The notes beneath the pieces are model-generated. The model did no database searches and was not told the DNA's origin. It saw only the letters and a program-made list of their open reading frames with translations. From positions 1-38,338 of the forward strand of contig JAFZSR010000073.1 in NCBI GenBank assembly GCA_017619275.1: a stretch of DNA of 38,338 bases, given 5' to 3'. Shown here piece after piece: positions 236 to 31,456 of this stretch (positions are counted from its first letter, which is position 1; each line of letters opens with the position of its first letter). The position numbers and the translations under genes were made by a program. Origin of the DNA: Prevotella sp. (GTDB taxonomy: Bacteria > Bacteroidota > Bacteroidia > Bacteroidales > Bacteroidaceae).

Positions 236-298
236 TCTGTTTAAAATAGACAACAGTTTGTTCAAAACAGACAACAGATTGGACAAAATATGCAATGC
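236..298. repeat. Three tandem 21-bp imperfect repeats before the first gene
   Basis: Units 236-256, 257-277 and 278-298 share the layout [TA]TTGGACAAAA[TC]A[GT]. The first two are nearly identical and end in ACAACAG; the third is diverged. The 21-bp period is two helical turns. The array ends about 20 bp before the TAnnTTTG box at 317, so it is a candidate operator for the locus. The longest open frame starts inside this array but is not used as the gene start here. Confidence 0.5.
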
Positions 299-362: not shown

Positions 363-2720
363 ATGCGCCGTCTATCCCTTTCAGTATTGTTCCTGGCACT
401 GGCCTTTGGGCTACATGCCCAATCGTGGTGGACAGCCCCTGACCGCCATCAATACAACGACGAGACCGTGGTCTACGCCGCCCTGCAACTCGAGACATGG
501 TCCTCGAATTATTGCAATTCGCACTATCGCGTGGCCGCCTTCATCGACGACGAGTGCCGCGCCATTGCCGACGCGCCGGAGACCCACAACGACGGCAGCA
601 GCGTCTTCGTGCTCCGCGTGCTGGGCGACCGCGACAGCGACAAGGGCAAAAGCATCCGCTTTGAGGTGTGCTGCAAAGACAACAACTTCGGGCTGGTGTA
701 CGACGTGACACCCACCACCCCCATCACTTTCGACGGCGAGTCGTGGGGCCGCCCCTCGCAGCCCATCGTGATGCATGGCGACGGCTTCACCGGTGGCGCC
801 AGCTTCAGGTTCAACAGTGCGACGATTGCGGTGGGCGAGACGGTCGACATCGTCAGCCTCTACCAAGACAACGCGATGCCGAAGTATGAGGAGATCACGC
901 TCAGCAACACCGAGGTGGCCTCGCTCGACGGCACCGTGGTCACCGGTCTGCAACCCGGCGAGGTGTGGTTCACGGTGCGTTTCCCCGGCATCTCCATCGG
1001 CAATGTCATCACCGTCATCCAGCCTGCCACCGCCTTGAACCTCCTCATCGACGAGATTCGCGTCGACATTGCGCTGCCTGAGACGCTGCAGACAAAGGCC
1101 GAGGCGTGCTACGAGCTGCTGCCCGCCAACACCACCGACATCATCACGTGGCTCATCGACGACCCGACGATAGTAGGCTACGACCCCGCCACTGCGCGAC
1201 TCCTGCCACTTGCCGTCGGCGAGACCTATATTGAGCCCGTGGTGCTGGCTGCCGACGGCAGTGTGCGCCTGCGCCCTGCCAATGGCCGACGCATCCACGT
1301 CATCATCTATGAGAACATCCCCTTGCAGGGGTTTGTCGTCAGCATCGGCCGTGTGGCCGTCGGCGAGACCACGCCCATGACGCTCACCCCCGTGCCGGCC
1401 AACGCCACCTTCGACCCGCAGGACTTCATCATCACCATGCCCGTTGCCTCGCCAGCCTTTGCACACTGGCAGGCAGCAAGCTATCAGCTGGTGTCGCGCG
1501 AACCTTTTATTTATAATGTCACCGGCTTAGTGCCCGGATGGGCCAATATTGAGATATGGCCCAAGGATGGCTCCTCGCAGGAGCCTTATCCGCTTTATAG
1601 CGATGTTGATGGCGAGACCCTCTTCGACGGTTTCGGCATCAACGAGCGGTTGGCGTTCAGCGAGGGATGGCAGTGGCGCACCAACCCCTACGGCGACCTG
1701 GACGCGCAGAACATCGAAACCGTCTTCGGCCCCTCGCTCATCGAAGCCCGCACCCAGCAGGAGCTGCTCTACAACGACCCCGAGCTGGGCTACTTCGGCA
1801 CCATCATGACAGGCGAAGGCATTCCCGAGAATATGGCCTACAAGGTGAAGATGCAGAAAGATGCCGTCGGCTACTTGGCCAGAGGCACCTATTACCCCAG
1901 CTGGTCGATAGTGCTGGAAGAGGGCTGGACATGGATTCCCACCTACTATTTCTACGACCGCCAGCTCACAACCGCCTTCGCTGGCAACAACCTGCCCGAG
2001 GGTACCGTCATCGTGTCGAAGGAAGACGGATCGGCCGAGTGGAACGGCACCGAGTGGGAGGGCGACCTGCAAGTGCTGCCCACGCGCCAGAGCTTCCTGT
2101 GCTACTACCCCGACACGGAACCCTACATACTGCTGTACGCCTCCGAATTCGAAATGCCACAGGGTATCACCCCCAGCGGGCCCTCCCCCTACCCCTCCCT
2201 TGTAGGGAGGGGAGCGGATACCTCTGCTGCTGGAATTACAGATGGCAAATCTATATACTCCTCTCCCTACAAGGGAGAGGCTGGGGAAGGGTCTGCTCAA
2301 CTTAAAGCTACCGCCCGCCGCTTCCGCGACAACATGACGATGGTGGCCACGGTGAACGGCGCCGCCAACCAAACGCTGTTGGCCTACGTGGGCGATGAGT
2401 TGCGTGGCATCGGCAGTGCTATCAATGGCCGCTACCACCTCACCGTGCATGCCGACGGTGGCGAGCGCATCAGTCTGCGCCTACTCGATGCCGACGGCTA
2501 TGAGTGGCCTGTCGACGAGCAGTTCACCGTCAGCCAGCTGCGCTTGGGTTCGCTGCGCCAGCCCGTAGCACTCCACAGCCAAGCCTGGACGCAAGGCATC
2601 AACAACGTTCAACGTTCAACGTTCAACGTTCAACGTATCTACGACTTGCAAGGCCGCCCCGTGAAGCATCCACAGAAAAAACACATCTATATTATTAATC
2701 ATAAAAAAGTGAGATTATGA
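363..2720 (+). CDS. Secreted Ig-like surface protein with sorting-signal-like C-terminus
   Basis: I start this 785-residue protein at ATG 363, where a signal peptide begins (MRRLSLSVLFLALAFG, cleavage near HAQ). The frame is open from 258, but that start lies upstream of the probable promoter. Visible modules are an N-terminal beta domain with AAFIDDECRA near residue 58, Ig-like segments in the middle, a GWQW...GWTW module from about 435, a second FVDGECRG-type domain (AYVGDELRG) near 674, and a C-terminal tail IYDLQGRPV...KKV like Bacteroidetes type-A sorting domains. It is paralogous to the next gene, with which it overlaps by 4 bp. Residues from about 606 to 645 are encoded by two palindromic repeats and have no counterpart in the paralogue. 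The linker NVQRSTFNVQR comes from a heptamer array. Exact function is unknown; surface adhesion or structure is inferred. Confidence 0.8.
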   Translation: MRRLSLSVLFLALAFGLHAQSWWTAPDRHQYNDETVVYAALQLETWSSNYCNSHYRVAAFIDDECRAIADAPETHNDGSSVFVLRVLGDRDSDKGKSIRFEVCCKDNNFGLVYDVTPTTPITFDGESWGRPSQPIVMHGDGFTGGASFRFNSATIAVGETVDIVSLYQDNAMPKYEEITLSNTEVASLDGTVVTGLQPGEVWFTVRFPGISIGNVITVIQPATALNLLIDEIRVDIALPETLQTKAEACYELLPANTTDIITWLIDDPTIVGYDPATARLLPLAVGETYIEPVVLAADGSVRLRPANGRRIHVIIYENIPLQGFVVSIGRVAVGETTPMTLTPVPANATFDPQDFIITMPVASPAFAHWQAASYQLVSREPFIYNVTGLVPGWANIEIWPKDGSSQEPYPLYSDVDGETLFDGFGINERLAFSEGWQWRTNPYGDLDAQNIETVFGPSLIEARTQQELLYNDPELGYFGTIMTGEGIPENMAYKVKMQKDAVGYLARGTYYPSWSIVLEEGWTWIPTYYFYDRQLTTAFAGNNLPEGTVIVSKEDGSAEWNGTEWEGDLQVLPTRQSFLCYYPDTEPYILLYASEFEMPQGITPSGPSPYPSLVGRGADTSAAGITDGKSIYSSPYKGEAGEGSAQLKATARRFRDNMTMVATVNGAANQTLLAYVGDELRGIGSAINGRYHLTVHADGGERISLRLLDADGYEWPVDEQFTVSQLRLGSLRQPVALHSQAWTQGINNVQRSTFNVQRIYDLQGRPVKHPQKKHIYIINHKKVRL
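2178..2220 (-). repeat. Palindromic REP-like element, copy A
   Basis: A 9-bp perfect stem (2192-2200 with 2204-2212) has a 3-nt loop. On the minus strand it is followed by the G-rich tail GGTAGGGGGAGGG. It is the inverted partner of copy B 30 bp to the right. Both lie inside the coding frame of the first gene and are translated as a Pro/Gly/Ser-rich linker. Confidence 0.75.
2250..2294 (+). repeat. Palindromic REP-like element, copy B
   Basis: TCTATATACTC is followed by a 9-bp perfect stem (2260-2268 with 2272-2280, loop ACA) and the tail CTGGGGAAGGGTCT. The same lead, stem and tail order appears at 7715-7758, and inverted at 7564-7603. It is translated as YSSPYKGEAGEGS within the first gene. 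Confidence 0.75.
2604..2636 (+). repeat. Heptamer array AACGTTC within a coding region
   Basis: Four exact AACGTTC units (2604-2631) are followed by AACGT. Because 7 is not a multiple of 3, three units encode seven residues (NVQRSTF), and gain or loss of one unit would shift the frame just before the C-terminal sorting-like tail. The downstream paralogue carries the same kind of array at the same place. Confidence 0.8.
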
Positions 2721-5683: not shown

Positions 5684-5710
5684 CGTGAATATCCATTAAT
5701 TTGAACACTG

Positions 5711-5783
5711 CGACACAGAGATACAGAGTTTTGTGAGAAACACTTTGAAAACGGAGAGAGCCAAGACTCTGTGTCTCTGTGTT
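5711..5783. repeat. Inverted repeat of CACAGAG type upstream of the barrel gene
   Basis: The left arm ACACAGAGATACAGAG (5713-5728) pairs with the right arm CTCTGTGTCTCTGTGT (5767-5782) with one mismatch, leaving a spacer of about 38 bp. A related half-copy lies at 23763-23788. Both sit just upstream of a start codon. The longest open frame begins with GTG 5733 inside this repeat, which argues against that start. Confidence 0.6.
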
Positions 5784-5798
5784 AATAAAAAGAATCCG

Positions 5799-7586
5799 AT
5801 GATGAGCAGACAACGACAACCTCGCGCGTACATTATATATATTATAATGGTCATCGCCGCACTGACAGCTCCTCCCTTCGGGGGAACCGGGGGAGCACAG
5901 GCCCAGTCAATCACGCTGGGGCAGAACACCATCTCGAACATCGCCAAGAGCGACCCGCTCATCATCACTGGTGCCATCGGCACGCAGAACACCTACTACC
6001 ACTCCTCCATAGGCAGTGGCTACCGCTCGCCGTGGGGCAACTCGTTCTACGCCAACCTCAACGTGTCGGTGTACGGCATCTCCATGCCCTTCGCGTTCTA
6101 CTACTCCAACAACAACTCCTCGTGGAACTTCCCCCACTTCTCGTTCCACATCGACCCCACCTACAAGAATTGGCGCGGCCACTTCGGCCGTAGCAATATG
6201 GGCATGCACGCCTACATCATGAACATGTCGTTCAACGGCATAGGCCTGGAATACAACTCCACCAAGCTGCGTGCAGGTGCCTTCTACGGCGAGCTGCGCA
6301 ACGCCATCAACGACAATCCCGAAGACCCCGCCCACCGCAATCCGCAGTATCAGCGCATGGGCATGGGCGTGAAACTGGGCTATGGCACCAGCCGCAACTA
6401 CATCGACATGTTCCTGCTGCGTGCCTACGACAAGATCTCGTCGGTCGACGCCCGCTGGCACGACCAAATCAACCCGCAAGACAACGTGGCCGTGGCCCTG
6501 AAGGGCGGCCTGGGCCTGACACGCTGGCTCTCGCTGCGCGGCAACCTTGCATGGAGCACCTTCTCAAGCGACAAGCGCGCCCAGCGCGTACACACCACAG
6601 AACTCGACCGCTGGGACAAGGTGTTCGAAGCACGCTACACCTCGCTCATGCGCATCGCCGGCGACATCAACGCCACGCTGATGCTCAAAGGCTTCAGCGC
6701 CAACATCTTCTATCGCATGGTGCAGCCCGACTACACCACGCTGGGACTCTACTACACCAGCAACAACTACCAGTCGCTGGGCATCAACGCCTCGACGACC
6801 CTTTTCAAGAGAATCAGCCTCTCGGCCTCGTTCAGCGGCCAGGAGGACAACATAACCCGCCGCCAGCTCTACACCACTCGCGGCTTCGTCTACAACGCCT
6901 CGGCTTCTACCTCGATAGGCAACAACATCTCGCTCACTGCGGGCTACAGTGGCTACCGCCAAGTGCAGGCCGACGGCAAAGCCCGCGTCTACGACACCAC
7001 ACGCGTAGACCGCATCATGCATTCGGTCTACTTGAGCCCAACGTACACCATCGACGGCGATCAGCTGGGACACAGCATCGCGCTCACGGGCAACTTCACG
7101 CAGAACCTCGACCTCAACCAATTTGCAACTGGCGTCAGCGATGTCACCACATGGGCTGCTGGCGCTACCTACGCCTTGGACGTGAAGCCGTGGGAGATGT
7201 CGTTCACTACGGCTTACTCGCACCAGACCTCCAAAGGCTACAAGACACGCTATTCAAGCGACGTGCTCTCGTTCTCGACGGGACGCTCGTTCCTCAAGGA
7301 GAAAAACCTGTACACATCGGCCACCGTGTCGCTGTGCTACAACGACATACGCGACCAACAGCGCAACCTCTCTGTGGGTGCCGACCTCTCGGCGGGCTAC
7401 ACGCTGGCGAAGGTGCACCAGTTCTCGTTCACTGCAGGCTTCAACAAATACAGCGACACCAACCTCACGGCCGACCTGTCGTCGATGGGAACCACAGAAA
7501 TCAACCTCTCATTAGGCTACAACTACACCTTCTCGCTGCTGCAGCTGGGGAAGAAGAAATCATCCCCCGACAGCCCCTCCCTATAG
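5799..7586 (+). CDS. Predicted outer-membrane beta-barrel linked to the giant TANFOR-like protein
   Basis: Starting at ATG 5799 (or 5802) gives a protein of about 595 residues with a signal peptide ending in AQAQ. The mature part is rich in alternating aromatic/polar strands with turns (YGISMPFAFYYSNNNSSWNFP, HPTYKNW-like segment, GMGVKLGYG, later GLGLTRWLSLRGNLAW and further strands), which fits an outer-membrane barrel. From memory, similar sequences in Bacteroidetes often lie beside TANFOR-domain and fibronectin-like genes; I could not check this. Two oddities: the signal peptide c-region APPFGGTGG is encoded by a G-rich repeat-like block (5868-5896), and the C-terminal residues and TAG stop lie inside a REP-like element (7564-7603). 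The original C-terminus may therefore have been replaced. The first 22 residues of the longer GTG-initiated frame are excluded because they come from the inverted repeat. Confidence 0.75.
   Translation: MMSRQRQPRAYIIYIIMVIAALTAPPFGGTGGAQAQSITLGQNTISNIAKSDPLIITGAIGTQNTYYHSSIGSGYRSPWGNSFYANLNVSVYGISMPFAFYYSNNNSSWNFPHFSFHIDPTYKNWRGHFGRSNMGMHAYIMNMSFNGIGLEYNSTKLRAGAFYGELRNAINDNPEDPAHRNPQYQRMGMGVKLGYGTSRNYIDMFLLRAYDKISSVDARWHDQINPQDNVAVALKGGLGLTRWLSLRGNLAWSTFSSDKRAQRVHTTELDRWDKVFEARYTSLMRIAGDINATLMLKGFSANIFYRMVQPDYTTLGLYYTSNNYQSLGINASTTLFKRISLSASFSGQEDNITRRQLYTTRGFVYNASASTSIGNNISLTAGYSGYRQVQADGKARVYDTTRVDRIMHSVYLSPTYTIDGDQLGHSIALTGNFTQNLDLNQFATGVSDVTTWAAGATYALDVKPWEMSFTTAYSHQTSKGYKTRYSSDVLSFSTGRSFLKEKNLYTSATVSLCYNDIRDQQRNLSVGADLSAGYTLAKVHQFSFTAGFNKYSDTNLTADLSSMGTTEINLSLGYNYTFSLLQLGKKKSSPDSPSL
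5868..5896 (+). repeat. Degenerate REP-like G-rich block in a signal-peptide region
   Basis: GCTCCTCCCTTCGGGGG is followed by AACCGGGGGAGC. The outer arms GCTCC/GGAGC pair, and the block resembles the stem-plus-G-tail layout of copies A-D but is diverged. It encodes APPFGGTGGAQ between the hydrophobic core and the AQAQ cleavage region of the barrel protein. Membership in the same family is uncertain. Confidence 0.4.
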
Positions 7587-7603
7587 GACGGGGAGTATAT
7601 AGA
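7564..7603 (-). repeat. REP-like element, copy C, containing a stop codon
   Basis: On the minus strand this reads TCTATATACTCCCC, an imperfect stem (7574-7582 with 7585-7593, two mismatches) and the tail GGCTGTCGGGGG. It is the inverse of copy D at 7715-7758. The TAG ending the barrel gene (7584-7586) is in the loop and right arm, so the element provides the last few codons and the stop. Confidence 0.7.
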
Positions 7604-7635
7604 ATCATTCCGTATATATTTATAGCGTAAAGAAT

Positions 7636-16600: not shown

Positions 16601-19600
16601 TGACGAAATTCTCGGGAGCCAGTGCGACAATTACCGATGAGATGTTCTCTGGATGCTCAAGTCTTTCCACGCTCTACATCGATTGCTTCGATGCCAATGA
16701 ATACGTGATGAGCTGCTCGAAGATGTTCGTCAATGTGCCCAACAGCCTCGTCTCCTATATCAATGTCTGCCTCAAGCAGGAAATCAAGGATCAGATACCT
16801 GGAAGGAAGAATGTGGACTATTCGAGCATGAAGGCTGTACTGGCCGAACAGTCTGATGGGAAGAATGTGCTGATATTCCTGAACACCGGTGAGGATTTGA
16901 AGACAGGCAACACCTATCTCGCCACCAAGAATGCATCGTATGGCCACCTGAACATCAAGAAGGTCTATGCCGGCAACGACGTAATGAAGACACCCACCAA
17001 TTCGAAACCGGGATGGGCTGGCGACAAGACGTTGTACAAAGTCATCTTTGATGCGTCGTTCAAGGCATCGCCCACCTCCATGTACGGATGGTTCCAGGGC
17101 TGCGAAAACCTGAACACCATCAGCGTGAAGGGCAAGCTTCTGACCAAGGAAGTGACCACAATGGCCCACCTGCTCGATGGCTGCTCCAACCTGAAGTCGG
17201 CGGCATTTGTCACGGAATTCAATACCGACCAAGTGAAGGACATGTCGTACATGTTCAACGACTGCAAGAGCCTGACGATGATTCAGCTGAATCACTGGGA
17301 CTGGGATAAGGCCTACTTCAACACGAAGAACGTGGAGGACATGTCGAACATGTTTGCCGGTTGTGAGAACGCAGAAAAGATTGAGCTGAGCGATTTCTTC
17401 AACATGAACAGTTTGACAAAGACGGTTTCCATGTTCCAAAATTGCAAGAAGCTTGAAAGAATTGTCGTGCAACACAACTACATTCCGATGGATAAGGCCG
17501 ACAAGCTCATCTTCACGAACAATATGTTTAACGGCTGTGAGAGCCTCAATTCTTTTGCCGACTTTATCAAGCTGCTCAACACCTCGCATGTGATGAGGAT
17601 GGATGGCATGTTCAGGAACTGCTCCTCGCTGACAGAACTTGACCTCTCGCATTTCACCACGGAGGGCTTAAAGATTTCCGATTACATGTTCTTAGGATGT
17701 ACTTCCCTGAAGAAGGTCGACCTGTCGCACTTCGAAGCTGCCTCGTTGAGCACGGCAGCATGGATGTTCAAGGATGTTCCCACCGATTGCTACATTTACC
17801 TGCCCTACAATACGCACCGAAACATTCACCCGATGCAGGTGAAGGTCCAGACGCATCCTAACTTGGTGCTGATCTATCCCAGCAAGGCTTTGCTGCTGAA
17901 GTCGAACAGCACCGACAAGGAACTCGTCTTCCTCAGCGACGAGGCCGCATACAGTGCAGGACAGAAATACGATGGAAAGGAAATCGTCGACGTATGGACC
18001 GACAACGCGCTCTACAACGGCGGCGCACCATGGAGATCATCATACGCCAAGGACATTATCAAGGTGACGTTCAAGCCCAGCTTCGAAACAGTGATGGTGA
18101 CCAACATGAACAACTGGTTCTATGGAATGAACAGGCTTACGAACATTGAGGGCATGGAGTATCTCAACACTTCGCAGGTGAAGAAGATGGAAAACCTGTT
18201 CAATGGTTGCAATTCGCTGAAACATATCGACCTGAGTCATTTCGACACTGGCAATGTGGAAAGCATGCACTTCATGTTCCACGACTGCTTGTCATTGGAG
18301 GAACTCGACCTGAGCCACTTGAACACATCGAAGGTGACCGACATGTACGGCATGTTCTCAGACTGTAAAAGGCTGAAGCGCCTCGACCTGAGCAACTTCA
18401 ACACGGCCAATGTCAACAATATGACCATGATGTTCGAAGGCTGCAAGGCTCTCAAGCAATTGGATGTCTCGAGCTTCGACACAAGAGCCGTCAATAGCTT
18501 CACCATGATGTTCAGCGATTGCTCTTCGCTGACAGAACTCGACCTGTCAAACTTCTACATCACTGACGAGGCAGCTGTCTTAGGATATATGCTATATGGC
18601 TGCACCTCGCTTCGCACGCTATATGTCGGCTCTGCATTCCAAGGCAAGAGCGAATTCAGCCATGCTGATTGGGAGCCCGTTCCCGATAAGCCCACGAACA
18701 ACACATTCGGCAAGGTGCACGACCTGTATGTCTACGTAAAGGCTGGATCTTACGACAGGATTCGCCAATACTTGCTGAAGCTGGGATTTGTGGAAGGCGA
18801 GACGGGCGAAATCTACGGCCCTGGCAGGGAACCCATCCCACAGGCAGTATGGACCGAGGGCAACAGCACGCTGACCTTCATCTTCAATCCCACCCTGCTG
18901 AAGGCTGGCGACACCTTCAACGGGCAGACGGTGACAGCCGCCTGGAACGGAACCGACATCACCGACACGCCATCAAACAACCAGGAGGCTCCTTGGTCAC
19001 GGACGGTGATGGCCAAGATGAAGCATGTGGTGATAGAGTCTGCATTCAGCAGGGTGACTCCCAAGAGCACTGCCTACTGGTTTGCTGAACTGGGCACCTC
19101 GACATTGCAAAACATCAAAGGTTTAGCATACCTCAACACGTCGGAGGTGACCGACATGTCGGGCATGTTCAAGGACTGCAACAGTCTGAAAAGGCTCGAC
19201 CTGAGCAATTTCAACACGGAGAAAGTCACCAACATGAGCGATATGTTCAGGCGCTGCGGCTCGCTGCTGGCGGTCGATCTGTCGGGATTCAACACAGACA
19301 ACGTCACCAACATGAATGGCATGTTCTTCGGCTTCGGGACAGAGTGGCCGCTCGACATCTCGAATTTCGATACGGGCAAAGTGAATAACGCCGACTACCT
19401 CTTCGCCAACTCCAAGGTGAAGTACCTCACGGTAGGTGCCGGCTTCGGCGGCTATTTTGGAAGATATGGACAATACAATTACCAGTCACACGCCTTCGAC
19501 AACGTGAAAGGCATGCAGGTGACCATCAACACGGAATCCCAAGTCCAAGCGCATCAAACGAAGACTGCCTTCAAAGAGTACCTGAATTTCATCGAAGGCA

Positions 19601-20520
19601 CCAATGGCACCTTCATCATTCCTGCCGACATGAAGGTCCAAAAGATATGGATCAAGGACACCAAGACACTCATCTACTACTACGGTGAGCCGTATGGAAC
19701 CAATGCTTCAAATAGACGGTATGATGGTTACTCGATTACCTCCATCTGGAATTTGGTTGATGGAAAATGGGTCGCTCAAAATGGCTTCTATAGCCCAACA
19801 GGAATCTCTGGCAATCCAAAGAACCTAGCCACCAAGGCGGTGATTGATCGGTCGTTCACTCAGGTGAGACTGCGCGACGCAAGCAATATGTTCGCACTGG
19901 GTCCCCAGCTGACGACTATTGAAGGACTGAAATACTTGAACACCTCAGAGGTGGAGAATATGGACAACATGTTCCAAAACTGCGGAGTTGAACAGCTCGA
20001 CATCAGCCAATTCGACACCCACTCCGTGAAGTCCATGGCCAACATGTTCATGGGGTGCCGCAAGCTGAAGACACTCGACTTGAGCGGCTTCGACACACAT
20101 TTGGTGGAGCAGATGCAATCCATGTTCAATGGATGTACGGCGCTCACAGATGTGAAGCTCGACCATTTCGATGTGAGCATGGTCAAAAGACTGGATAATA
20201 TGTTTTATGGGTGCAGCAGTCTGAAGGCACTCAACTTGAGAAGTTTCTCTCTTAACAACGGTCCCTTGGAGAAAATTAATTCCATGTTTGCAGGATGCAC
20301 CAGCCTGAGGTCCCTGAAGTTGTCGCATACCTTCCAACTCCCCAACATCAACAACAAGAACAACTATGCGAATGCGTTCGACCGTGTTACGAAACTGAAG
20401 GTCATTATCTATACGCCCTACTCATTAAACCGCACACTCGATTTGGAAAGAGACTTGGAGAAGATGGGCTTCACCAAGAACACCGGCACCATTGAGCGCA
20501 AATCTGTAAATGATGATTAA
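7636..20520 (+). CDS. Giant secreted protein: TANFOR-like N-terminus and five BspA-type LRR cassettes
   Basis: The protein has 4294 residues in one uninterrupted frame. A signal peptide (LLILVLLNLQFIYIL) is followed by TSLQGGAGGGS, encoded by REP copy D, then WAQ. Residues about 45-210 fit the TANFOR domain: PPRPGEYIDNL, then FGVQVQ, then LMDEGQYELQL, ending in a C-containing strand. Residues about 340-2000 are beta-rich, with repeated WQGLYIKNVEVEFPKF-type segments and two Lys/Glu-rich stretches (near 1031-1061 and 1556-1640). From about 2820 to the end there are five cassettes. Each has a lead-in beta segment (NTLTFAYTN-type), a VxFxxSF strand and 4-8 DUF285/BspA-type repeats of about 23-26 residues (pattern MFxxCxxLxxLDLSxFNTxxVxxM), about 28 by hand count. 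There is no sorting-like tail or lipobox, so its anchoring is unclear. It lies between the barrel gene and the fibronectin-like gene, 14 bp before the latter. Surface adhesion is inferred. Confidence 0.85.
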   Translation: MTVKHNIGNRCFKKALLILVLLNLQFIYILTSLQGGAGGGSLWAQDITLQVTPTQQVIPPRPGEYIDNLGRYFRVTMINNTDAAQRIYFGVQVQQKFPSDVLWMSTNVQTMHIPQQPIVLSPNQHKTLNSIEMRHLFDHFDSHDIFVREGRYKNILDSDFGLMDEGQYELQLTAYKWDPELSSPVVLNNPTDGICLFNVCYEAEAPVFTTPDITFMDGGLGDLSIINIDKANPRFEWKTPTLNCNATMVQWQYDIRFVELGSMMPDEAMQTNTITFLEKKLLTQNYYTIPSAYITQMIADTAAQGKIYAMQVTAHTPYQSKNALNVPMIKNEGKSPIVLFRLQDQTKDISSIKGEGVDVENEKRGAAYIYEQPILTSPTFAGNWSRLIYQDDDIEVKWRQPALAGGWGEQQDTIKFNYTLALYTGNSADNKEVIFKSKALYDKEFNKDELKDDYEYTIKWDDIKEKVKQGDYLMLRITAKPTNKPDSIFEMKSDSLNYTDFALTTHFNENYQCGHDNITVKNQTKIGKMPEKGTSFKIGQFYMTFDENVKFEKEDSTFTGSGWVRWKPQSDNFYNMNARVAVKFSKLKVNTDNEVFEGKCQTYSINETLNRYNDTEALDSLFSITGLDNVFGALELPEDVRNAITKELGSDPEKLLKDEVGSLAKSYHLGKYYSELKQGMYKWDDLKHGDVFDLYFPVELPDTLKEFLPKDFSLQIGSMQFTPQSAQMNLIAEVALPNSDIFDGQDVLIFGAPRLCITPDKFFPEEGVLALLSNLPLKDPNSDFKMVFKAPTEPLDPMPKDGCFLRWAGGEFGGLGLNIACTVPNTKRIVDGKAQDDIPALIDLWTVIEANESAGDFIASGKVTPFEVTDLPGWSFHVADEIVFDHNMDKNSNIMPNWEEVEKKYTVSYYDKDDKTIKKTTTFDRSLCGTGVKSDWNAWQGLYIKNVEVEFPKFAVFGKGEEGVKVGAQNMLLDASGISCRMYAQNILDAQTGRCGGWMFGIDEATVDIIQNNFDNCKITGSIGVPLLGKKADRKANEESKSKGKGDTKKADDGQDTDFNYSCEIRHLTDPENIEYYTYDKSGTKKEKHTRKKYANTYGYVFSTVAIPDLSLNCFVADLTLKQCYFLVESIDEEKDENDYTQVELCLAGDINIAGADDINATISDRVKSLIKDLPIDLKLPGIHFTKMRLSNVAYDKWRKDLGLSTIHEEGEKAQEEIEKELKKKLFYTSLNRKNGGNGELELGKECFFRYGEWSLASMQKKIGPFTFNLETFEPNYDEKEKQVSLAIFGGLGLVENKICVDAGVTITAKANFSGDVSNWYLSDGEVTFDSLKVGCDFTALKLEGVLNVGKNAQGEKGYAGRLTIDVNEIFSLDVKGGYYEHEATENDKKEREQEAKDEAAKEGKEYTKNASIDDPKFSYGYFMVDFQSKVGIHIDPVVINGIRGGFFFNCRPTKGESNFDGTPVADYGTIGLAFGMGLSTSAGEETLKVDADLLVAFNRKRGELTTFMFNGKAEAVGGIIKADMSLVYEKTPTDRYLCLNITSEMGFGNNKLTDALNKMNEELQAGADALEKLKTNVANLTNEPIDKIPEKGLGMLSGKYDKDGQQKENKSDTELTKEEEAKLAAQKQKNTKEVKGITSKQKLEFKVTWMQNGVKKTPTKWHLYLGEPDKDKRCSFIFLDFDASAVHAHIGADAYLCIGNELPGNGQLPAIPSKITEFLNGHKKDQADLGADMAKVEQSRKDAAKAMLNPSGTKGGVMVGASAWGDMRIDLGLIYGSLDANAGFDAALVNYGKTAFCTNTHSAMGYGGWYAMGQLYAYLAADLGLRIHIGELINKDVNLLNAGIGGVLEMGLPNPTWLDGQARIKFECLSGLVKIDRSFSFSFGDHCTPFLGNALDGFELFQNVSMGSDSLYQALYKPEFAISKNDVSKMTFATNASLGSHYRLIDPNVADKMKKDFYGDDYYDKEMADSLNHLVELQASRTYVFDMNQDTRGGMKLGVRLIDLGTKPTQWLEQGRSLSAKDFKLELMKQGLNDQGEQVYVGLNSPKSKSDAVSALGTHNDVIQFIGSYFSTREQTVSEMSTAMMGADLSMPEREILHSGEMASYLGYLLDHGRFKDGTTIKMKERNVTFREEKGRIFHLSDMNVEAGHSYALLLMGDAYEIENGYRVWCDYVNTDTNTPERIKWQQAKLWFFRVKSNKEDKIIGDSLTSIESYVALAYPSVDGTKVSSIGTGYTTAYHNDIMHPTIALNRDLRFDVPQGKMKWVLTAYHANEYERDDSLCWRYRQERTAKYIYGDNCLNLEPNTPFKEPNVFANERSSKGSSYNYANQLYHLELLYTYKDTNLKDSVTNKFVDLWLTSAPYNVTVNGKTYTDSWMETTNREITGELLPYTQPFVGASPSTAPVFSYENSLKKKNDVDLAFNNVKLGSTPYRLVDPWLYLAYLSKFTFVGDRKIYPYTFDPMGVPHASESLVYEMGGTIINSDYVRGEDGKTLWELRNDMYNTWNDWSYNSTLQPEWPLPVTLKTVGGPTVVNQNNRASTVTPRNVKLQPDRTYSFVNVAQDFMRPYDVAKAMSSVLKKNAQKVWDAFADSFFPTTHTFRYSILDQFMKELNADYRGHYIECNSGNVSAKVPFYQLPLIFGGCFGTPLHPVNDRPTYMGISVGTPLETPGHRRGFDASLVEGYELTYGFKRFDSRRSNLLFFRLLGSYAPSWAVDVPARMFISSYLDANNSDEIGAWPDYDEFDRESSLKYVTSFKARIYRVDAYNMKNGFYQMKERGGGPWVDSLTIGSGNLKNMGDMVTYIRESQAQLENFEDTDNFYAIYTESDNTLTFAYTNEKLSSGMESSKLMGKKALTKVYKNDALNEYWKRDNAIRSKVKHVVIHQTMLDMNPTSMNEWFADMKNLVDIQGLGYLNTDDVVSMKRLFKGCTSLVELDLHKLRTPNVESMQEMFSGCTALKKISVIGFDTKNVKNFYRMFQNCSQLKTLNLTKFSGASATITDEMFSGCSSLSTLYIDCFDANEYVMSCSKMFVNVPNSLVSYINVCLKQEIKDQIPGRKNVDYSSMKAVLAEQSDGKNVLIFLNTGEDLKTGNTYLATKNASYGHLNIKKVYAGNDVMKTPTNSKPGWAGDKTLYKVIFDASFKASPTSMYGWFQGCENLNTISVKGKLLTKEVTTMAHLLDGCSNLKSAAFVTEFNTDQVKDMSYMFNDCKSLTMIQLNHWDWDKAYFNTKNVEDMSNMFAGCENAEKIELSDFFNMNSLTKTVSMFQNCKKLERIVVQHNYIPMDKADKLIFTNNMFNGCESLNSFADFIKLLNTSHVMRMDGMFRNCSSLTELDLSHFTTEGLKISDYMFLGCTSLKKVDLSHFEAASLSTAAWMFKDVPTDCYIYLPYNTHRNIHPMQVKVQTHPNLVLIYPSKALLLKSNSTDKELVFLSDEAAYSAGQKYDGKEIVDVWTDNALYNGGAPWRSSYAKDIIKVTFKPSFETVMVTNMNNWFYGMNRLTNIEGMEYLNTSQVKKMENLFNGCNSLKHIDLSHFDTGNVESMHFMFHDCLSLEELDLSHLNTSKVTDMYGMFSDCKRLKRLDLSNFNTANVNNMTMMFEGCKALKQLDVSSFDTRAVNSFTMMFSDCSSLTELDLSNFYITDEAAVLGYMLYGCTSLRTLYVGSAFQGKSEFSHADWEPVPDKPTNNTFGKVHDLYVYVKAGSYDRIRQYLLKLGFVEGETGEIYGPGREPIPQAVWTEGNSTLTFIFNPTLLKAGDTFNGQTVTAAWNGTDITDTPSNNQEAPWSRTVMAKMKHVVIESAFSRVTPKSTAYWFAELGTSTLQNIKGLAYLNTSEVTDMSGMFKDCNSLKRLDLSNFNTEKVTNMSDMFRRCGSLLAVDLSGFNTDNVTNMNGMFFGFGTEWPLDISNFDTGKVNNADYLFANSKVKYLTVGAGFGGYFGRYGQYNYQSHAFDNVKGMQVTINTESQVQAHQTKTAFKEYLNFIEGTNGTFIIPADMKVQKIWIKDTKTLIYYYGEPYGTNASNRRYDGYSITSIWNLVDGKWVAQNGFYSPTGISGNPKNLATKAVIDRSFTQVRLRDASNMFALGPQLTTIEGLKYLNTSEVENMDNMFQNCGVEQLDISQFDTHSVKSMANMFMGCRKLKTLDLSGFDTHLVEQMQSMFNGCTALTDVKLDHFDVSMVKRLDNMFYGCSSLKALNLRSFSLNNGPLEKINSMFAGCTSLRSLKLSHTFQLPNINNKNNYANAFDRVTKLKVIIYTPYSLNRTLDLERDLEKMGFTKNTGTIERKSVNDD
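7715..7758 (+). repeat. REP-like element, copy D, inside a signal peptide
   Basis: TCTATATACTCAC is followed by stem CCTCCCT (7727-7733) pairing with AGGGAGG (7736-7742) and the tail GGCAGGGGGTGGGTCT. It is colinear with copy B. It encodes IYILTSLQGGAGGGS of the giant protein, between the hydrophobic core and the cleavage site, without breaking the frame. Confidence 0.75.
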
Positions 20521-20534
20521 AACAATTCAAAAAC

Positions 20535-22823
20535 ATGAGGTATAAGTCAATCGTTGCATCGCTGGCCCTGCTCGCCACCAGTCTCACGGCAGGCGCTCAG
20601 ACGCCCGACACACTACAGGACGCCGGGGTGCGCCAGCGTGTGCTGCCCCTCGTCACCACGAAGATACGTCTGGTCACCCGCACCTACGGCGACAGCATTG
20701 TGCTGCGGTGGAGTGCCGAGGATTATGTATCGTGGAAATACCTGGCCAATTGGGGCGTCAATGTGCTGCGCGTCTCACGCGGCAGCCACGGTCGACAGGT
20801 CGACACGCTGGCCTACGCCCTGAAGCCACTCACGCTGGAGCAGTTCCAGGCCAAGTATCCGCCCAGCGACTCCGTGGCGCTGGTGCCGCAAGGCGTGCTC
20901 TACGGCGATGCCAAGAACGTCAAGCACGAGCGACCCGGCACCATGGGGCGCACGCTGGAGGACAACTCCGACCAGGACATGGCCTTCGGCTTCGCCATGG
21001 TGGTGGCCGAGTGGCGCAAGGACCTGGCTGAAGACATGGCCGTGCGCTTCACCGATCGCAACGTGCAACCGGGCATGACCTACGAATACATCGTGCAGCC
21101 CACACGGTGGGAGAATGACGGACGCCTCATCTTCGAACCTGGCATCGTGGAGAACGTGGAGAACAATCCCTACGACCCCGAACCCTTCCGACCCACAGTC
21201 ATCGACTCGCTGACGGCATCTCACAGCGTCAAGCTGGGCTGGTGGGACAGCCGACATTCGAGCTATGAGATTGAACGCCGCTTGGTTAGTCGTTTGGAAA
21301 AAACGCTGGATAATCGTTTAGAGCCTTACGACCTAACAACCGAAGGACTGGACGACCAAATGACCCAATGGCAGCGCGTCATCTCGAAGCCCTACGTCTC
21401 GATGGTGGAGCAGCCCGAAGGTGCCGACTACCGGTTGTTCGTCGACTCGGTTTCCACTCTGGGCGTCTATGAATACCGCATCATGGGCTACGATGCCTTT
21501 GCCGACTTGAGCCTGCCATCGGAGCCGCGCCGCGTGGTGGTCTACGACATCGATGCACCCACACCGCCACAACTGAAGTACATCGTGGTGGAGCGCCCCG
21601 ACGATAAAGACCCCATGGCAAAGGTCATAGCCCACATCGTGTGGGAGAAGTCCGAAATTGAAGACGACCTCGTGGGCTACTGCCTCTACTATGGCAGCGG
21701 CCGCTCCACGGGCGGCGAGTGGCAGCTGATGAACCAGGAGATGATTCCGCCGCAGGACACCATCTACCACGCCGACGTGACCGGACTCTCCACCGGCATG
21801 ATCTACCTGAAAGCCTACGATGATTCGGGCAATGAGAGCAACTCCTTCCCGCAGCAGATGCGCCTCACCGACTACAAGGCACCCGCCGCCCCCAACTCCA
21901 TCAAGGTGCAGATAGTGATGCCGCCTGCCGACACCACAATGACCGCCAAGAAGGAGTGGGCCTACGCCATCATCACATGGCAACAGGCTCCAGAGGATGA
22001 CGACATCGACTACTACGACGTGGCCTTCGCCAACGATTCCACCCACAACTTTGTCATCCGCAACCAGGGCGGCATACGCGAACAGATGTTCATCGACTCG
22101 CTGGCACTCGACGTGAACCAAAAATACATCTTCTACAAGGTGCGTGCCGTTGACTACTCCACCAACATCGGACCATGGAGCCCCATGTTGCGCGTGACAC
22201 GCCCACACATCACCCCGCCCACGCAGCCTCATCTCGACAAGTCGAGCCACACCGACCAGGACGGCATGCACATGGAGTGGGTAGTGGGAATGGATGTAGA
22301 CATGACTCATCATGTGCTCTACCGCCGTCTGGGCGAACGGGGCGACTGGCAGCCCATCGGGCGCTACGACGCCGACTCTTTGGTCTACCACGACTACCGT
22401 ATCGTGGTCGACGACATGCCGCCTTACGACCGCGAGCAACGCTACTACTACCACCTGGAGTCGTTCAACGCCTCGCCCTTCACGTCGAAGAGCCTTGCAG
22501 TGAGCTGGCTGCACGCAGGGCCGAAGATATGGCCCGTCGACATCGAGCTGGCTGGCGACTACATCAATAACGAGAAGGAGACACGACTGGTGTGGAACGT
22601 GGGCAAGCTGCCCTTCGACGCCCCCTACTACTTCTGCATCTACCGCAAGACCGCAGCCGACAGCAAGTTCAGCTTCGTCATCAGCCAGCCCGCCGAAAAA
22701 ACAGAATACACCGACCGACTGCTGCGCAAGGGCGAGAAGGCCGAGTACTATGTGATGATACAGTGGCGCGACGGACGGCAGAGCACAACGTCGAACACCG
22801 TCACCATCTCCCGCAAGGAATGA
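20535..22823 (+). CDS. Secreted fibronectin-type-III-like protein
   Basis: This 762-residue protein has a signal peptide (MRYKSIVASLALLATSLTAG, cleavage near AQ). After an N-terminal region of about 200 residues containing VLRWSAEDYVSWKYL, it shows four or five FN3-like beta-sandwich units at about 210-335, 340-440, 445-555, 560-665 and 668-762. Typical starts are APTPPQ, APAAPNSI and TPPTQPHL, with Trp- and Tyr-containing strands (VWEKSE, YYDVAF, HHVLYRR). It starts 14 bp after the giant gene, so the two are almost certainly cotranscribed. FN3 chains in secreted bacterial proteins usually serve as spacers or binding modules; a role as partner or cap of the giant protein is inferred. No lipobox or sorting-like tail is visible. 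Confidence 0.75.
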   Translation: MRYKSIVASLALLATSLTAGAQTPDTLQDAGVRQRVLPLVTTKIRLVTRTYGDSIVLRWSAEDYVSWKYLANWGVNVLRVSRGSHGRQVDTLAYALKPLTLEQFQAKYPPSDSVALVPQGVLYGDAKNVKHERPGTMGRTLEDNSDQDMAFGFAMVVAEWRKDLAEDMAVRFTDRNVQPGMTYEYIVQPTRWENDGRLIFEPGIVENVENNPYDPEPFRPTVIDSLTASHSVKLGWWDSRHSSYEIERRLVSRLEKTLDNRLEPYDLTTEGLDDQMTQWQRVISKPYVSMVEQPEGADYRLFVDSVSTLGVYEYRIMGYDAFADLSLPSEPRRVVVYDIDAPTPPQLKYIVVERPDDKDPMAKVIAHIVWEKSEIEDDLVGYCLYYGSGRSTGGEWQLMNQEMIPPQDTIYHADVTGLSTGMIYLKAYDDSGNESNSFPQQMRLTDYKAPAAPNSIKVQIVMPPADTTMTAKKEWAYAIITWQQAPEDDDIDYYDVAFANDSTHNFVIRNQGGIREQMFIDSLALDVNQKYIFYKVRAVDYSTNIGPWSPMLRVTRPHITPPTQPHLDKSSHTDQDGMHMEWVVGMDVDMTHHVLYRRLGERGDWQPIGRYDADSLVYHDYRIVVDDMPPYDREQRYYYHLESFNASPFTSKSLAVSWLHAGPKIWPVDIELAGDYINNEKETRLVWNVGKLPFDAPYYFCIYRKTAADSKFSFVISQPAEKTEYTDRLLRKGEKAEYYVMIQWRDGRQSTTSNTVTISRKE

Positions 22824-22835
22824 CTATTGGCGGTT

Positions 22836-22866
22836 GACTGTAGACTATAGACGGTAGATAGTAGAT
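22836..22866 (+). repeat. Heptamer array GACTATA type
   Basis: GACTGTA, GACTATA, GACGGTA and GATAGTA follow in register, then a partial unit. This is the reverse complement of the TCTATAG heptamers at 38073-38149, so one dispersed heptamer family is present in both orientations. It lies between two genes of the locus. Confidence 0.6.
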
Positions 22867-22884
22867 GCCCTCAGCTGGTTGGGG

Positions 22885-22902
22885 GGCGGTGTATTCACCG
22901 CC
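22885..22902. other. Short hairpin in the intergenic region
   Basis: GGCGGTG-TATT-CACCGCC forms a 7-bp stem with a 4-nt loop. No T-tract follows, so this is not a convincing terminator. It may be part of a small repeat element or affect RNA stability upstream of the lipoprotein gene. The rest of 22824-22980 shows only the heptamer array. Confidence 0.35.
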
Positions 22903-22980
22903 AAGCCCATAGCCTTTAGGCGATAGATTTTCATCATTGAAAGGATGCATTCATGCTTGAACAAAATAAAAAATGACGAT

Positions 22981-23751
22981 ATGAAGAGGAGTAAAAACAG
23001 ACATCTGACAGGAGGAGCACTATTGATATGCCTGGTGGCCCTGAGTTCGATGGTTACCTCCTGCGGCGAATATTGGGACGGCGGCGAGCCCGTGGCGGCA
23101 CGCAAGATGACACTCGGCCGACGCGTGGTGAACCTGGTGGTGGGCGACCGCTACCGCATTCCCGTCATCTTCGAGCCCGACACGCTCTCGAACCGCTCTG
23201 TGTTCTGGCAGACGGTGGACAACAAGGTGGCCGTCGTCGAGAACGACACCGTCATCGGTATGGCCGAGGGCCTCACCCTGGCCTACGCCCTCAGCGTCAG
23301 CGACCATCAGAGCGACTCGTGCTGGGTGAACGTGCTGCCGTCGATATATCTCAACCCGAAGAACTATCCCTACGACATGGTCATCTATGCCGACGTCACC
23401 ATCCATGGCCATCCTTATACGAAGGCCGACGAGGACTCGCTCATCGTTGCCGCCTACGTGAACAACGAGCTGCGCGGCATCGGCAAGATGCGGGAATGGA
23501 AAGGCAGACCCTATATGGAGCTGCGCCTGTGGAACAATAATGCCGAGAGCAACGACTTGGTGGAGCTGAGGTGCTACTACCGAGGCCGGGGCTTGGCGGA
23601 AATCTTCCCCACCTACTATTTCTTCGATGGTGACGCCCACGGTTCTCTGTCGCATTTGGAAAAGCTGGTGCTCGACGACGACGCCCGCGAATATGCCCCA
23701 TGGGATGCCATCGGCATCGACGAGCCTATCGACACCCTTGTGGCAATTTGA
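22981..23751 (+). CDS. Lipoprotein with a FVDGECRG-type beta domain
   Basis: I start at ATG 22981, 256 residues, because it gives a compact lipoprotein signal (MKRSKNRHLTGGALLICLVA, lipobox VTSC with Cys28). An upstream in-frame ATG at 22945 would add 12 non-signal residues. The N-terminal mature part has Ig-like strands (VVNLVVGDRYRIPVIF...AVVENDTVIGMAEG), resembling bacterial Ig-like group 2 domains. The C-terminal half holds VAAYVNNELRGIG near residue 157, the same motif as in the two Ig-like proteins at the start of the locus. The protein is probably attached to the outer membrane. The shared domain suggests it contacts the same partners as those proteins; this is inference. Confidence 0.75.
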   Translation: MKRSKNRHLTGGALLICLVALSSMVTSCGEYWDGGEPVAARKMTLGRRVVNLVVGDRYRIPVIFEPDTLSNRSVFWQTVDNKVAVVENDTVIGMAEGLTLAYALSVSDHQSDSCWVNVLPSIYLNPKNYPYDMVIYADVTIHGHPYTKADEDSLIVAAYVNNELRGIGKMREWKGRPYMELRLWNNNAESNDLVELRCYYRGRGLAEIFPTYYFFDGDAHGSLSHLEKLVLDDDAREYAPWDAIGIDEPIDTLVAI

Positions 23752-23762
23752 CCTCTAAAGAA

Positions 23763-23788
23763 TTCTGTGTTTTCTATGTCCTCTGTGG
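23763..23788. repeat. Half-copy of the CACAGAG-type repeat
   Basis: TTCTGTGTTTTCTATGTC followed by CTCTGTGG resembles the right arm of the inverted repeat at 5711-5783. It lies immediately upstream of the lipoprotein gene at 23798. No matching left arm is seen nearby. Confidence 0.45.
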
Positions 23789-23797
23789 AAAAAAACT

Positions 23798-26509
23798 ATG
23801 ACAATGAAAAAGACCTTATCATACCTGCTGATGCTTCTGGGCGCCTCGCTGGCATCGTGCAACCTGTTTATTGATGAAGAGGTGGAAGACCTCAGCCAAG
23901 GGCTGGACCTGAATAAGAAGACGGTGTACACCGGTGACGGCTTTTCGAATCCCAAGACCGAGGTGGGCGACGATTACACCATCACCTACCAGTATTACGA
24001 CAACGTGAAACTACTCACCGACGAGATACAGAGCTATATCGTGCGCTGGGAGGTTGACGACCTCTTTGGCAGCATTGGCTACATCGACTTCCGCGAGGAC
24101 ACCCCAGAGCAGTTCCTGCCCCGCATAGGCGAAGTGGTGGCCACCGGCGCCACAGAAATGATGCCCGATGGATTCTATGCCATGGTGATGGCTGCCGGCT
24201 TCGACGAAGGCGTCTACCGCATAGGCACCTGCGCCGTGGACATGAACAAGGTGTTCAAACACCTGGAATGCGAAGCCAACGTAACCCTTGTGGATGACGA
24301 AATGCGCGATGCCATCAACCAGAACGGTGGAGGCGGCACGAAGAGGTTAAAAGATGTGGGCACAGGCATTTTTGAATTGGAGGAAGCCCAGATAAAGACC
24401 AAAGATGACCTCGAAAACGAAGAAATTGAAAAAGATGATGGCAAATACTTATGCATCACCATCCCGATAAAAGCTGTCCTTGAAGGCCAAATGCCAAAAT
24501 ACAAGAATGGAGGCAAGAAAAAGAGAACCCGTGGTGCTGTGGTGGACAGCAAAGGCAATGTCACCAAATGGAGCGTATCGTCGACCGACGAAAACGCCCG
24601 CATGCAGAGTTCTGTCAGCACAGCAAGCGGGCTGGAAATCCTGCCGGAGGAAACGACAATGAGGCATCGGATCAGACTCGGGTTCGCCAATGAGGAATCC
24701 TCTATCTCCCCCATCTTCCAAATCATTGACACCATCTGTACCAAAGGCACAGCCCATATCTTGGGAGGCATAGAGTGCAGCAAGTCCAAAGAAAAGAAAA
24801 AGGCCCTGCCCAAGGTCATTTCCCTGAGAATGGGTCCTCTCCGACTAAAAGTGCTGCTCGGTAGTGGTGTGTCTTTAGATGCCAATGTCTTCGGCACGTC
24901 TGATGTGGTCTTCAACGACAGCAGCGTGATTCAAACGAGAATCAGGTTGCTGCCACCATCACCCCTCGACATCTTCGATTACGTGAAAAGCAAATTGGAT
25001 ATCGAACAGTGGGCGAAAGAAGAAGCCTTAGAAGTGGATGAGAAAGGATGTCGACATATATCAGGAAACATGTATGTGAAAAACGGCTCCATCGAGGGGA
25101 CTCTTGGCATTTCGGCCTCGCTCTCACTGGGCGTGGGCTTTGGAACCAAGAAAAACAGTGTCAACGCATACGTGAAGAACACCATGAGTGGGGAGGCGTC
25201 ATCATTTGGCATTACCAGCAACAATACGCTCAGCATTTCCGATGCCCCAGGCATGGCCATAAAAAGCAAGACTGAAACAGGGTTGAAAATGAGTCTGACG
25301 CTCAACATCTATGAGCTCCTACTCGGTGTTCAGGATAACGCCATTGACATTTCCAAGTTGGGTGTTAGTGCCTACAAGAAACTGGTTAACAAACTGAAGG
25401 GTGCGAATTCTTCGGAAGAGGATTTCCCCACCGACAAGTCACAGCTGGAGAAACTCATCCAAAGTTGGGAAGAGCTGTATGAGGAGCAGGAGAAAGAGAT
25501 TGACGAATCATGGGGATTTCTGGATTTTGACCTGCCGGAAGTGAAGTTTAAAGCATGGGATCGGTCACTGGGCACTGACAGCTGGGTGCCTCAAATGAAG
25601 GATTTCAGCTACAAGCGCACAGAAACCACCAGCCAAGGAGTCACTTATTACACCACTTGGTCTTATAGTACAAAAGGAAAGCTGGTCAACAACGGATTTG
25701 GCCCTTACTATCCTTGCATCTATGTGGATGGTGGCAAGGGCAACCCCGCAAATGGCACCTATTACCCCGACCTTGATGGGTATGACGAAACAGATCCGAT
25801 AGGCAAAAACACGACCATCAAAGGCTATGGCACCGGCATCTACATCAGAAAGCTGCAGCCAGGCAAGGCCTACACCGTCTACCCCGCCCTATCGTTGGGC
25901 AGGGGCCGTGAGCCACTGTTCTTAGATGTGCCACAGACACTGACCGTAGCTTCGCCTACGGTGAAGATCGTATCTGTCGACCAATATGCCAGCTACCAGT
26001 CGGAGAAGATGAAGGCCTCCAACTATTATGGCTATCTGGTGGAGGTACGAGTAGCGGTAAAGGGTGCGGCAAGCGTGCTGCAATGGTCCATCACGTTTGG
26101 CATTCCAAAGTCTGATGGAAGTATGCTGATGTATGAGAAGATGTTCAAGGGCAGCGAAGTGAAAGAGACCAGCGGCCATCCCGTGAGGATTGACATCACC
26201 TACCACAAGCCTTCATTTGAGTCCACAGTCTATGGCGAGTATTGGGTCAAAGAATTGAAGGATAACAATGAGTATCAAAACACATGGATGGAGATGGAAC
26301 CGTATCCCTTCATTGGTTCATGGTCGGCCTTCAATTTCAGCCGCCCCGTCACTCCCATGGGCAACGGCGATGCCCAGCTTGGAGCGCGATTCGATGCTAA
26401 TCTCACCGACGGGGGCACCGACCCCATCGTCTACTTCGATGATGATGACACGCCAACCAAGCCCGTGGCCATCATCCGCAACGGCATACGCACACCACTG
26501 CCTCATTGA
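23798..26509 (+). CDS. Large lipoprotein of unknown family
   Basis: This 903-residue protein begins with a lipoprotein signal (KKTLSYLLMLLGASLASC, Cys21). ATG 23804 is an equally plausible start two codons later. An N-terminal beta region (YTITYQYYDNVKLLTDEIQS...WEVDDLFGSIGY) is followed by a charged stretch around residues 180-240 (KTKDDLENEEIEKDDGK). A beta-rich middle resembles the strands of the giant protein (GTLGISASLSLGVGFG). A helical Glu/Lys segment lies near 535-570 (LEKLIQSWEELYEEQEKE). The end, YFDDDDTPTKPVAIIRNG, contains no sorting-like tail. I do not recognise the family. As the last gene of the run it may act as an outer-membrane anchor or assembly factor for the locus; this is inference from position. 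Confidence 0.7.
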   Translation: MTMKKTLSYLLMLLGASLASCNLFIDEEVEDLSQGLDLNKKTVYTGDGFSNPKTEVGDDYTITYQYYDNVKLLTDEIQSYIVRWEVDDLFGSIGYIDFREDTPEQFLPRIGEVVATGATEMMPDGFYAMVMAAGFDEGVYRIGTCAVDMNKVFKHLECEANVTLVDDEMRDAINQNGGGGTKRLKDVGTGIFELEEAQIKTKDDLENEEIEKDDGKYLCITIPIKAVLEGQMPKYKNGGKKKRTRGAVVDSKGNVTKWSVSSTDENARMQSSVSTASGLEILPEETTMRHRIRLGFANEESSISPIFQIIDTICTKGTAHILGGIECSKSKEKKKALPKVISLRMGPLRLKVLLGSGVSLDANVFGTSDVVFNDSSVIQTRIRLLPPSPLDIFDYVKSKLDIEQWAKEEALEVDEKGCRHISGNMYVKNGSIEGTLGISASLSLGVGFGTKKNSVNAYVKNTMSGEASSFGITSNNTLSISDAPGMAIKSKTETGLKMSLTLNIYELLLGVQDNAIDISKLGVSAYKKLVNKLKGANSSEEDFPTDKSQLEKLIQSWEELYEEQEKEIDESWGFLDFDLPEVKFKAWDRSLGTDSWVPQMKDFSYKRTETTSQGVTYYTTWSYSTKGKLVNNGFGPYYPCIYVDGGKGNPANGTYYPDLDGYDETDPIGKNTTIKGYGTGIYIRKLQPGKAYTVYPALSLGRGREPLFLDVPQTLTVASPTVKIVSVDQYASYQSEKMKASNYYGYLVEVRVAVKGAASVLQWSITFGIPKSDGSMLMYEKMFKGSEVKETSGHPVRIDITYHKPSFESTVYGEYWVKELKDNNEYQNTWMEMEPYPFIGSWSAFNFSRPVTPMGNGDAQLGARFDANLTDGGTDPIVYFDDDDTPTKPVAIIRNGIRTPLPH

Positions 26510-27446: not shown

Positions 27447-27454
27447 CAGCCGAC

Positions 27455-29189: not shown

Positions 29190-29198
29190 TAACGAAAG

Positions 29199-30263: not shown

Positions 30264-30264
30264 G

Positions 30265-31305: not shown

Positions 31306-31332
31306 TGTAGTAATAATTATTGGTTTCGTCTG

Positions 31333-31364: not shown

Positions 31365-31400
31365 GAAATAGCCAAATAGTTTTAACTGATGGCGCGATTC

Positions 31401-31432: not shown

Positions 31433-31456
31433 TGCTCCAAAACAAATAGACAGACC

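Follow-up and report, generated by a model that had tools for sequence, protein, structure and literature searches.

The window analysed here is the whole stretch of 38,338 nucleotides that forms bases 1-38338 of its contig in a Prevotella metagenome-assembled genome (MAG; 3.59 Mb, 85% complete). It holds seven closely spaced open reading frames (ORFs) on the + strand, named g1 to g7, including a giant of 4294 residues (g4, 7636..20520). The gene set is a real conserved unit, and within the TANFOR class the locus is a variant with a PARCEL/DUF285 tip on the giant and a dedicated barrel partner (g3, 5799..7586). The preferred reading, to which a probability of about 0.55 was assigned, is that the genes form a single envelope cassette around the TANFOR-like giant for surface display, with a swappable tip that is adhesive in this copy. 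The earlier note on this DNA had suggested a surface assembly or adhesion apparatus; with the neighbours conserved, surface assembly was retained as the best reading of it. Literature searches combining several terms found no description of the whole gene set.

The conservation of the gene order was analysed at three levels. For the family and order levels the first 2755 residues of the giant were used as query, and homologues were found in 19 of 201 sampled family genomes and 22 of 198 order genomes, the window's own genome being counted in both. Neighbourhoods were taken from all 18 other family genomes and from 16 of the 21 other matching order genomes (without G019, G066, G132, G154 and G159). 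The 20 places in the family genomes showed a typical order of g1/g2-type gene, barrel, giant, Fn3-like gene and g6-type lipoprotein. The barrel stood directly 5' of the giant in 16/16 long-form family loci with that side present, and the Fn3-like gene directly 3' of it in 19/19 places (L063 was cut); two family places with short giants, L084 and L085, had no directly adjoining barrel. At the order level giants of about 1400-1550 residues prevailed in the loci of the 16 genomes, and an Fn3-like gene was found within four genes of the giant in 13 of these loci.

A scan of species genomes gave 153 confirmed barrel relatives, the best 80 of which are referred to as named loci. Nearly all of them are MAGs whose titles read Prevotella, Prevotellaceae, Bacteroidaceae or Bacteroidales, and many names point to the ruminant gut. 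The sole isolate is Hallella seregens ATCC 51272, in which locus L135 comprises g1/g2-type, barrel, giant and Fn3 genes. Several of the named loci belong to the same genomes as the loci labelled G (identical rows) and are not independent of them. The giant followed the barrel directly in 79/79 testable named loci (1 cut), and a g1/g2-type gene preceded the barrel in 77/77 (3 cut). An Fn3-like gene followed the complete giant in 46/47, of which 43 were found by profile and 3 by tblastn, with 32 cut; the only locus lacking it was L145, in which the frame of the giant is split. In the phylum the barrel profile matched 125 of 395 genomes at E <= 1e-5. Every second high-ranking place from rank 6 to 64 was sampled, giving 30 regions, and 28 of these yielded a barrel ORF. 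A giant or TANFOR ORF adjoined 24 of the 28 (E <= 1e-3; L218 at 14 bits); the barrels lacking such a neighbour were those of L204, L206, L211 and L215, and in L204 and L206 a very large unmatched ORF lay near the barrel. As the gene order is kept in other genomes, the clustering goes beyond chance, and chance clustering was rejected by the order conserved in the family, the named loci and the phylum sample. The earlier note had named independent occurrence of the barrel, giant and Fn3-like genes as the result that would speak against it; this was looked for, and in the family the three travel together. The possibility of a mobile element was also considered and set aside; the search, which covered plasmid records, gave weak matches to 4 of them.

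The giant had been described in the earlier note as one fibre-like unit; it is instead composed of several parts, namely a TANFOR domain, a conserved beta core, a C-domain and an appended PARCEL/DUF285 array. The divergent TANFOR domain (7759..8415, + strand, about residues 42-260) was found with hhalign, in which the family profile of the N-domain was compared with nine domains found by TIGR02542 and gave a probability of 98.7% and an E-value of 1.8e-16 over 193 columns; three control profiles gave 0.2-1.0%. L102, a relative of the giant, matches TIGR02542 at 2.7e-15 (56.5 bits, cut-off 67). The earlier note had known of no functional description of such a system; that none exists is not supported. 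TANFOR proteins were described by Jana, Salomon and Bosis in 2020 as polymorphic toxins of Bacteroidetes, and are hypothesised in that paper's main text (PMC7073777) to be type IX secretion system (T9SS) substrates; their toxin domains are C-terminal there, and their neighbourhoods are reported to be enriched in Fn3, SprB and T9SS C-terminal domain (CTD) or T9SS-substrate domains. TANFOR is also listed as one of the trafficking domains (PMC11796102). The locus is like the TANFOR toxins of the 2020 main text in its very large exported protein with an N-terminal TANFOR domain by profile comparison, its Fn3 and T9SS-type neighbours and its variable C-terminus. It differs in that its giant is missed by the curated model, carries a PARCEL/DUF285 tip and has no toxin domain found in it, and in its barrel partner; the words barrel, leucine, PARCEL and DUF285 are absent from that main text.

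The conserved core of the giant (11431..13287, + strand, about residues 1266-1884) is predicted to be a meander of 24 amphipathic beta-strands. The invariant cysteines of the giant lie at residue 1798 within the core and at residue 1888 just past its end. Comparison of the core with PDB sequences gave no relative save two weak antibody matches. The model of the core, which is of moderate confidence, was compared by VIA-align over Foldseek's first 1000 chains, families absent from these staying possible, and its root-mean-square deviation (rmsd) from barrels was 8-20 A. This rmsd points to a predicted meander in common with barrels, not to a barrel in common. The barrel partner, which belongs to no Pfam family, and the predicted amphipathic beta-meander of about 24 strands in the core are new relative to the main text of PMC7073777.

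The tip of the giant is a PARCEL/DUF285 (BspA-type) leucine-rich array (16078..20517, + strand, about residues 2815-4294) of tandem repeats of 25-26 residues, with nine stretches of PF03382 (E 2.8e-112) and 13 stretches of TIGR02167 (E 1.8e-93). It was cut into five related modules, which match one another. Over the giant, Pfam at E <= 0.1 gave repeat families of the PARCEL/DUF285 leucine-rich kind and nothing else. The array is like the PARCEL/DUF285/BspA-type surface proteins described by Roske et al. 2010 (PMC2996958) in its 26-residue repeats and in TIGR02167 and PF03382. Unlike the proteins described in that paper, it forms the tip of a TANFOR-like giant. As to the palindromic coding DNA of that class, 2 short inverted repeats were counted in the array, no excess over synonymous shuffles (mean 2.5) by an approach other than the MEME approach of that paper. 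The array was also considered as a recent acquisition; its GC content of 49.8% against about 55% was not telling.

Besides the window, 12 ORFs with PARCEL units were found with a locally built profile, and in the ten of them that retain the start of the giant these units begin at about residue 2820-2950. Among 88 giants of other loci, 63 were complete and had no PARCEL tip, 10 had the tip and 15 could not be determined. With the window included, the state could be called for 74 of 89 giants, the 15 cut or unclear ones being omitted; this frequency is biased because long giants are more often cut at contig ends. In trees built from the first 720 residues, the tip state changed 6 times with 74 rows, in which L145 (split frame, second ORF with PARCEL units) was counted as tip-less, and 5 times with 71 rows, in which L145 and two long-branch rows were left out. 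An IQ-TREE tree of 36 rows also gave 5 changes, 4 of them forced by starred branches, gain and loss not being separable. Shuffled tip states gave a mean of 9.5 changes on the 36-row tree, and 0/500 shuffles were as low as the observed 5. The changes being fewer than in shuffles, the tip state both changes and clusters on the tree. The two rows nearest to the window, L103 (69% identity in the N-part) and L104, have no array, and two loci in one MAG, RUG12472, differ in the tip, which is present in L108 and absent in L111. The tree and the comparison of tails thus show the C-terminus of the giant to be a swappable tip, and the TANFOR domain and the beta core are the constant part.

Other tails were observed as well. 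In the giants of L076 and L080 ribosomal L7/L12 C-terminal domains (PF00542) stand at the C-terminus behind leucine-rich repeats, with three stretches at 3.6e-46 in L076 and one in L080; L078 and L082 are similar by eye. These four giants have 4800-4970 residues and belong to genus code g169. A TANFOR protein of 1726 residues in L208 (3425-10207), which comes from the same-class relative G593, has an HNH-nuclease-like end by eye and adjoins a barrel gene of 336 residues.

The barrel partner g3 is a predicted outer-membrane beta-barrel of about 594 residues on the + strand, whose ORF opens at GTG 5733 and has in-frame ATG codons at 5799 and 5802, either of which may be the start. It showed 20 alternation peaks compared to a mean of 8.8 in shuffles (maximum 15), and no transmembrane helix was seen past the signal. 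The search of g3 against PDB found no relative, and its 77 homologues share no common Pfam family, their weak matches being scattered (the most frequent one in 6 members, lowest E 0.0011). Proteins of about 800-930 residues from family codes f142 and f135 give weak matches of about 34-45 bits to part of the barrel profile and possibly belong to a wider barrel family.

The remaining genes of the set, all on the + strand, were examined for their likely role. The gene g1 (363..2720) encodes an exported protein of 785 residues from the ATG at 363, of the family standing 5' of the barrel, and g2 (2717..5683; 988 residues) is its paralogue with a C-terminus of the same kind. The earlier note had called them Ig-like paralogues; the paralogy is confirmed, and no domain match supports the Ig-like label, as Pfam gave no match for g1 and one weak match far under the cut-off for g2. 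Apart from the giant, none of the six proteins of the locus passed a Pfam cut-off. The gene g5 (20535..22823) encodes an exported protein of 762 residues with multiple Fn3 domains; its Fn3-like label is backed by profile search against PDB sequences, Pfam fn3 being under the cut-off (19.3 of 25 bits). The lipoprotein g6 (22945 or 22981..23751; 268 residues from 22945) carries a domain common to g1 and g2, and g7 (23798..26509) is a lipoprotein of 903 residues whose positional conservation is weak. The Fn3-like gene and the lipoproteins are the gene content 3' of the giant, where an immunity gene would sit. The signal peptides and lipoboxes of the earlier note hold so far as they can be read by eye: signal-like N-termini are visible in the seven proteins, as are the lipoboxes VTSC in g6 and LASC in g7. 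By eye a lipobox likewise opens most g6 homologues and 9 of 13 g7-position genes listed. The seven ORFs and their spacing were confirmed: g1 and g2 overlap by 4 bp, followed by gaps of 115 bp (g2/g3, from 5799), 49 bp (g3/g4), 14 bp (g4/g5), 157 bp from the ATG at 22981 or 121 bp from 22945 (g5/g6) and 46 bp (g6/g7).

The export route was analysed through the CTD and through the T9SS genes. The C-termini of g1 and g2 resemble the T9SS type A sorting end, and a CTD-like motif ends 93 of 106 g1/g2-type proteins compared to 9 of 569 other ORFs, the pattern having been picked after inspection. By this motif the g1/g2-type proteins may resemble type IX substrates such as CTD proteins and SprB-repeat adhesins, and the order-level relative L088 has a SprB-repeat neighbour. 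Unlike such substrates, g1 and g2 have no Pfam or NCBIfam CTD match, and the narrow CTD motif was found in 0/71 complete giants, a test that is insensitive, as even with a second pattern added it recovers only 56 of the 108 proteins upstream of the barrel. SprA was present in 17/19 giant-bearing family genomes against 138/182 others, in 46/48 giant- or TANFOR-bearing genomes, and in all 78 phylum genomes in which the barrel matched at some 100 bits or higher against 22/40 others taken by label number, whose 18 negatives all belong to family code f136. The window's genome has SprA, and GldM gave no clear match (10.6 bits) in this 85% complete MAG. Since G206 lacks SprA and has GldM, SprA is probably missing from its assembly. 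Involvement of the T9SS in export of the giant appears likely, strict dependence on it doubtful.

In the proposed mechanism all products would reach the periplasm via Sec, as the signal-like N-termini suggest, and g3 would lie in the outer membrane, where its conserved adjacency points to a dedicated export or anchoring partner of the giant. The giant would be carried to the outer membrane or across it, probably aided by the type IX system of most carriers, and would stay at the cell surface with g5 as a putative Fn3 stalk or clamp. The lipoproteins g6 and g7 may serve as anchors, and g1 and g2 may be separate T9SS-type surface proteins. The tip of a relative can be a nuclease-type domain, and that of this copy would be the five-module array. 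Because the tip here is a PARCEL/DUF285 leucine-rich array, a contact or adhesion device is likelier than a toxin, and this copy is most likely a surface contact or adhesion device, as far as its sequence indicates.

Several observations weigh against the cassette reading. The giant was absent from all 12 same-genus genomes among those listed. The barrel was present in 8 of 16 order-level loci, one being a cut fragment and one standing behind the giant, and in 5 of 8 loci found by TIGR02542, in the stretches taken. An Fn3-like gene lay within four genes of the barrel in 10 of 28 phylum regions, so across the phylum it accompanies the barrel less regularly. With the curated TANFOR model TIGR02542 the window's genome gave nothing at E <= 10, and 0 of 40 genomes searched passed the model's cut-off. 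Co-occurrence with the T9SS was rejected as evidence of export, being uninformative given the SprA baselines. Moreover G204 (3 contigs, 99% complete) lacks SprA and GldM yet carries in L085 a short giant, an Fn3-like gene and a barrel two genes away. The 118 distinct genomes in which SprA was looked for include no second case of this kind; G204 argues that another export route exists in at least one genome. The frequent lack of the barrel at the order level would also fit unrelated exported-protein genes that merely lie side by side; this is very improbable given the conserved neighbours of the named loci (79/79, 77/77 and 46/47) and of the phylum sample (24/28).

An ordinary TANFOR polymorphic toxin has also to be weighed, in which the array reaches the target, an unrecognised toxic part lies in the C-domain (about residues 2030-2790) and g6 or g7 provides immunity. 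The giant has the TANFOR domain of a class described as toxins in PMC7073777, nuclease families occur in the tails of relatives, and the HNH-like end in L208 has a barrel gene beside it. The 88 mutually dissimilar tails searched (L145 omitted, window added) gave two nuclease-type Pfam families, each in a single tail and perhaps both in one, so that 86 or 87 tails had no nuclease-family match at E <= 0.001, and most matched nothing. In the giant itself the last 420 residues yielded DUF285 and leucine-rich repeat matches alone, and residues 2030-2790 searched by themselves gave no Pfam domain at E <= 0.01. Toxin domains are C-terminal in the main text of PMC7073777, whereas the giant here ends in a repeat array, and g6 encodes a conserved lipoprotein with a domain in common with g1 and g2, where an immunity gene would be small and variable. 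A toxin of the ordinary kind is considered unlikely, and the locus is not assigned to the polymorphic toxins, because the curated model had no match and the searches gave no toxin domain. A self-contained device of giant and barrel, whose amphipathic core would be embedded in the outer membrane, line it or bind lipid independently of the T9SS, is distinctly unlikely: it would suit the T9SS-less G204, which is however a single case with a short form, and the core model, of moderate confidence as it is, does not superpose closely on barrels. More speculatively, and with rather low probability, TANFOR giants with their private barrel may form a separate outer-membrane machine for display or delivery, with the core meander in or on the membrane and interchangeable tips of nuclease, L7/L12 or leucine-rich type.

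The region upstream of the set was searched for regulatory signals. Two direct repeats of about 21 bp, GTTtAAAAtAGACAACAG and GTTCAAAACAGACAACAG, lie 5' of g1 (239..277, + strand) and may be an operator; the search gave 2 matches at <=3 mismatches against a shuffle mean of 0.03. Their spacing is such as an AraC-type operator might have. Pairs of the AGACAA repeat were found in 2 of 73 other upstream regions (L112 and L150; shuffles mean 0.03), and an operator common to all loci was rejected on this count. The gene 5' of the g1/g2-type gene falls in one similarity cluster in 41 of 82 loci (upstream genes of >=150 residues), its members lying on the same strand or divergently; one member, L159:3261-6623, is by eye a histidine kinase-receiver-AraC hybrid. 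The window begins at the contig start, and the contig ends before the position of such an upstream gene. On the 3' side (26835-38070) the translations show by eye a lipoprotein, an extracytoplasmic function-type sigma factor, an anti-sigma-like or outer membrane protein, a DEAD-box helicase and a fimbrillin-like lipoprotein, and on the - strand a transposase-like protein, a GH43-like exported protein and an OmpA-like lipoprotein; no link of these genes to the seven-gene set was seen.

The cassette reading has consequences beyond this locus. A barrel family without a Pfam model is now tied to a polymorphic-toxin class of Bacteroidetes whose export route is so far a hypothesis, and in Prevotella-type bacteria the same chassis is seen with a tip that is leucine-rich and non-toxin. 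How TANFOR proteins are exported could now be tested through a single gene. If giants and barrels do form a separate machine, adhesion and toxin delivery would be two uses of one chassis.

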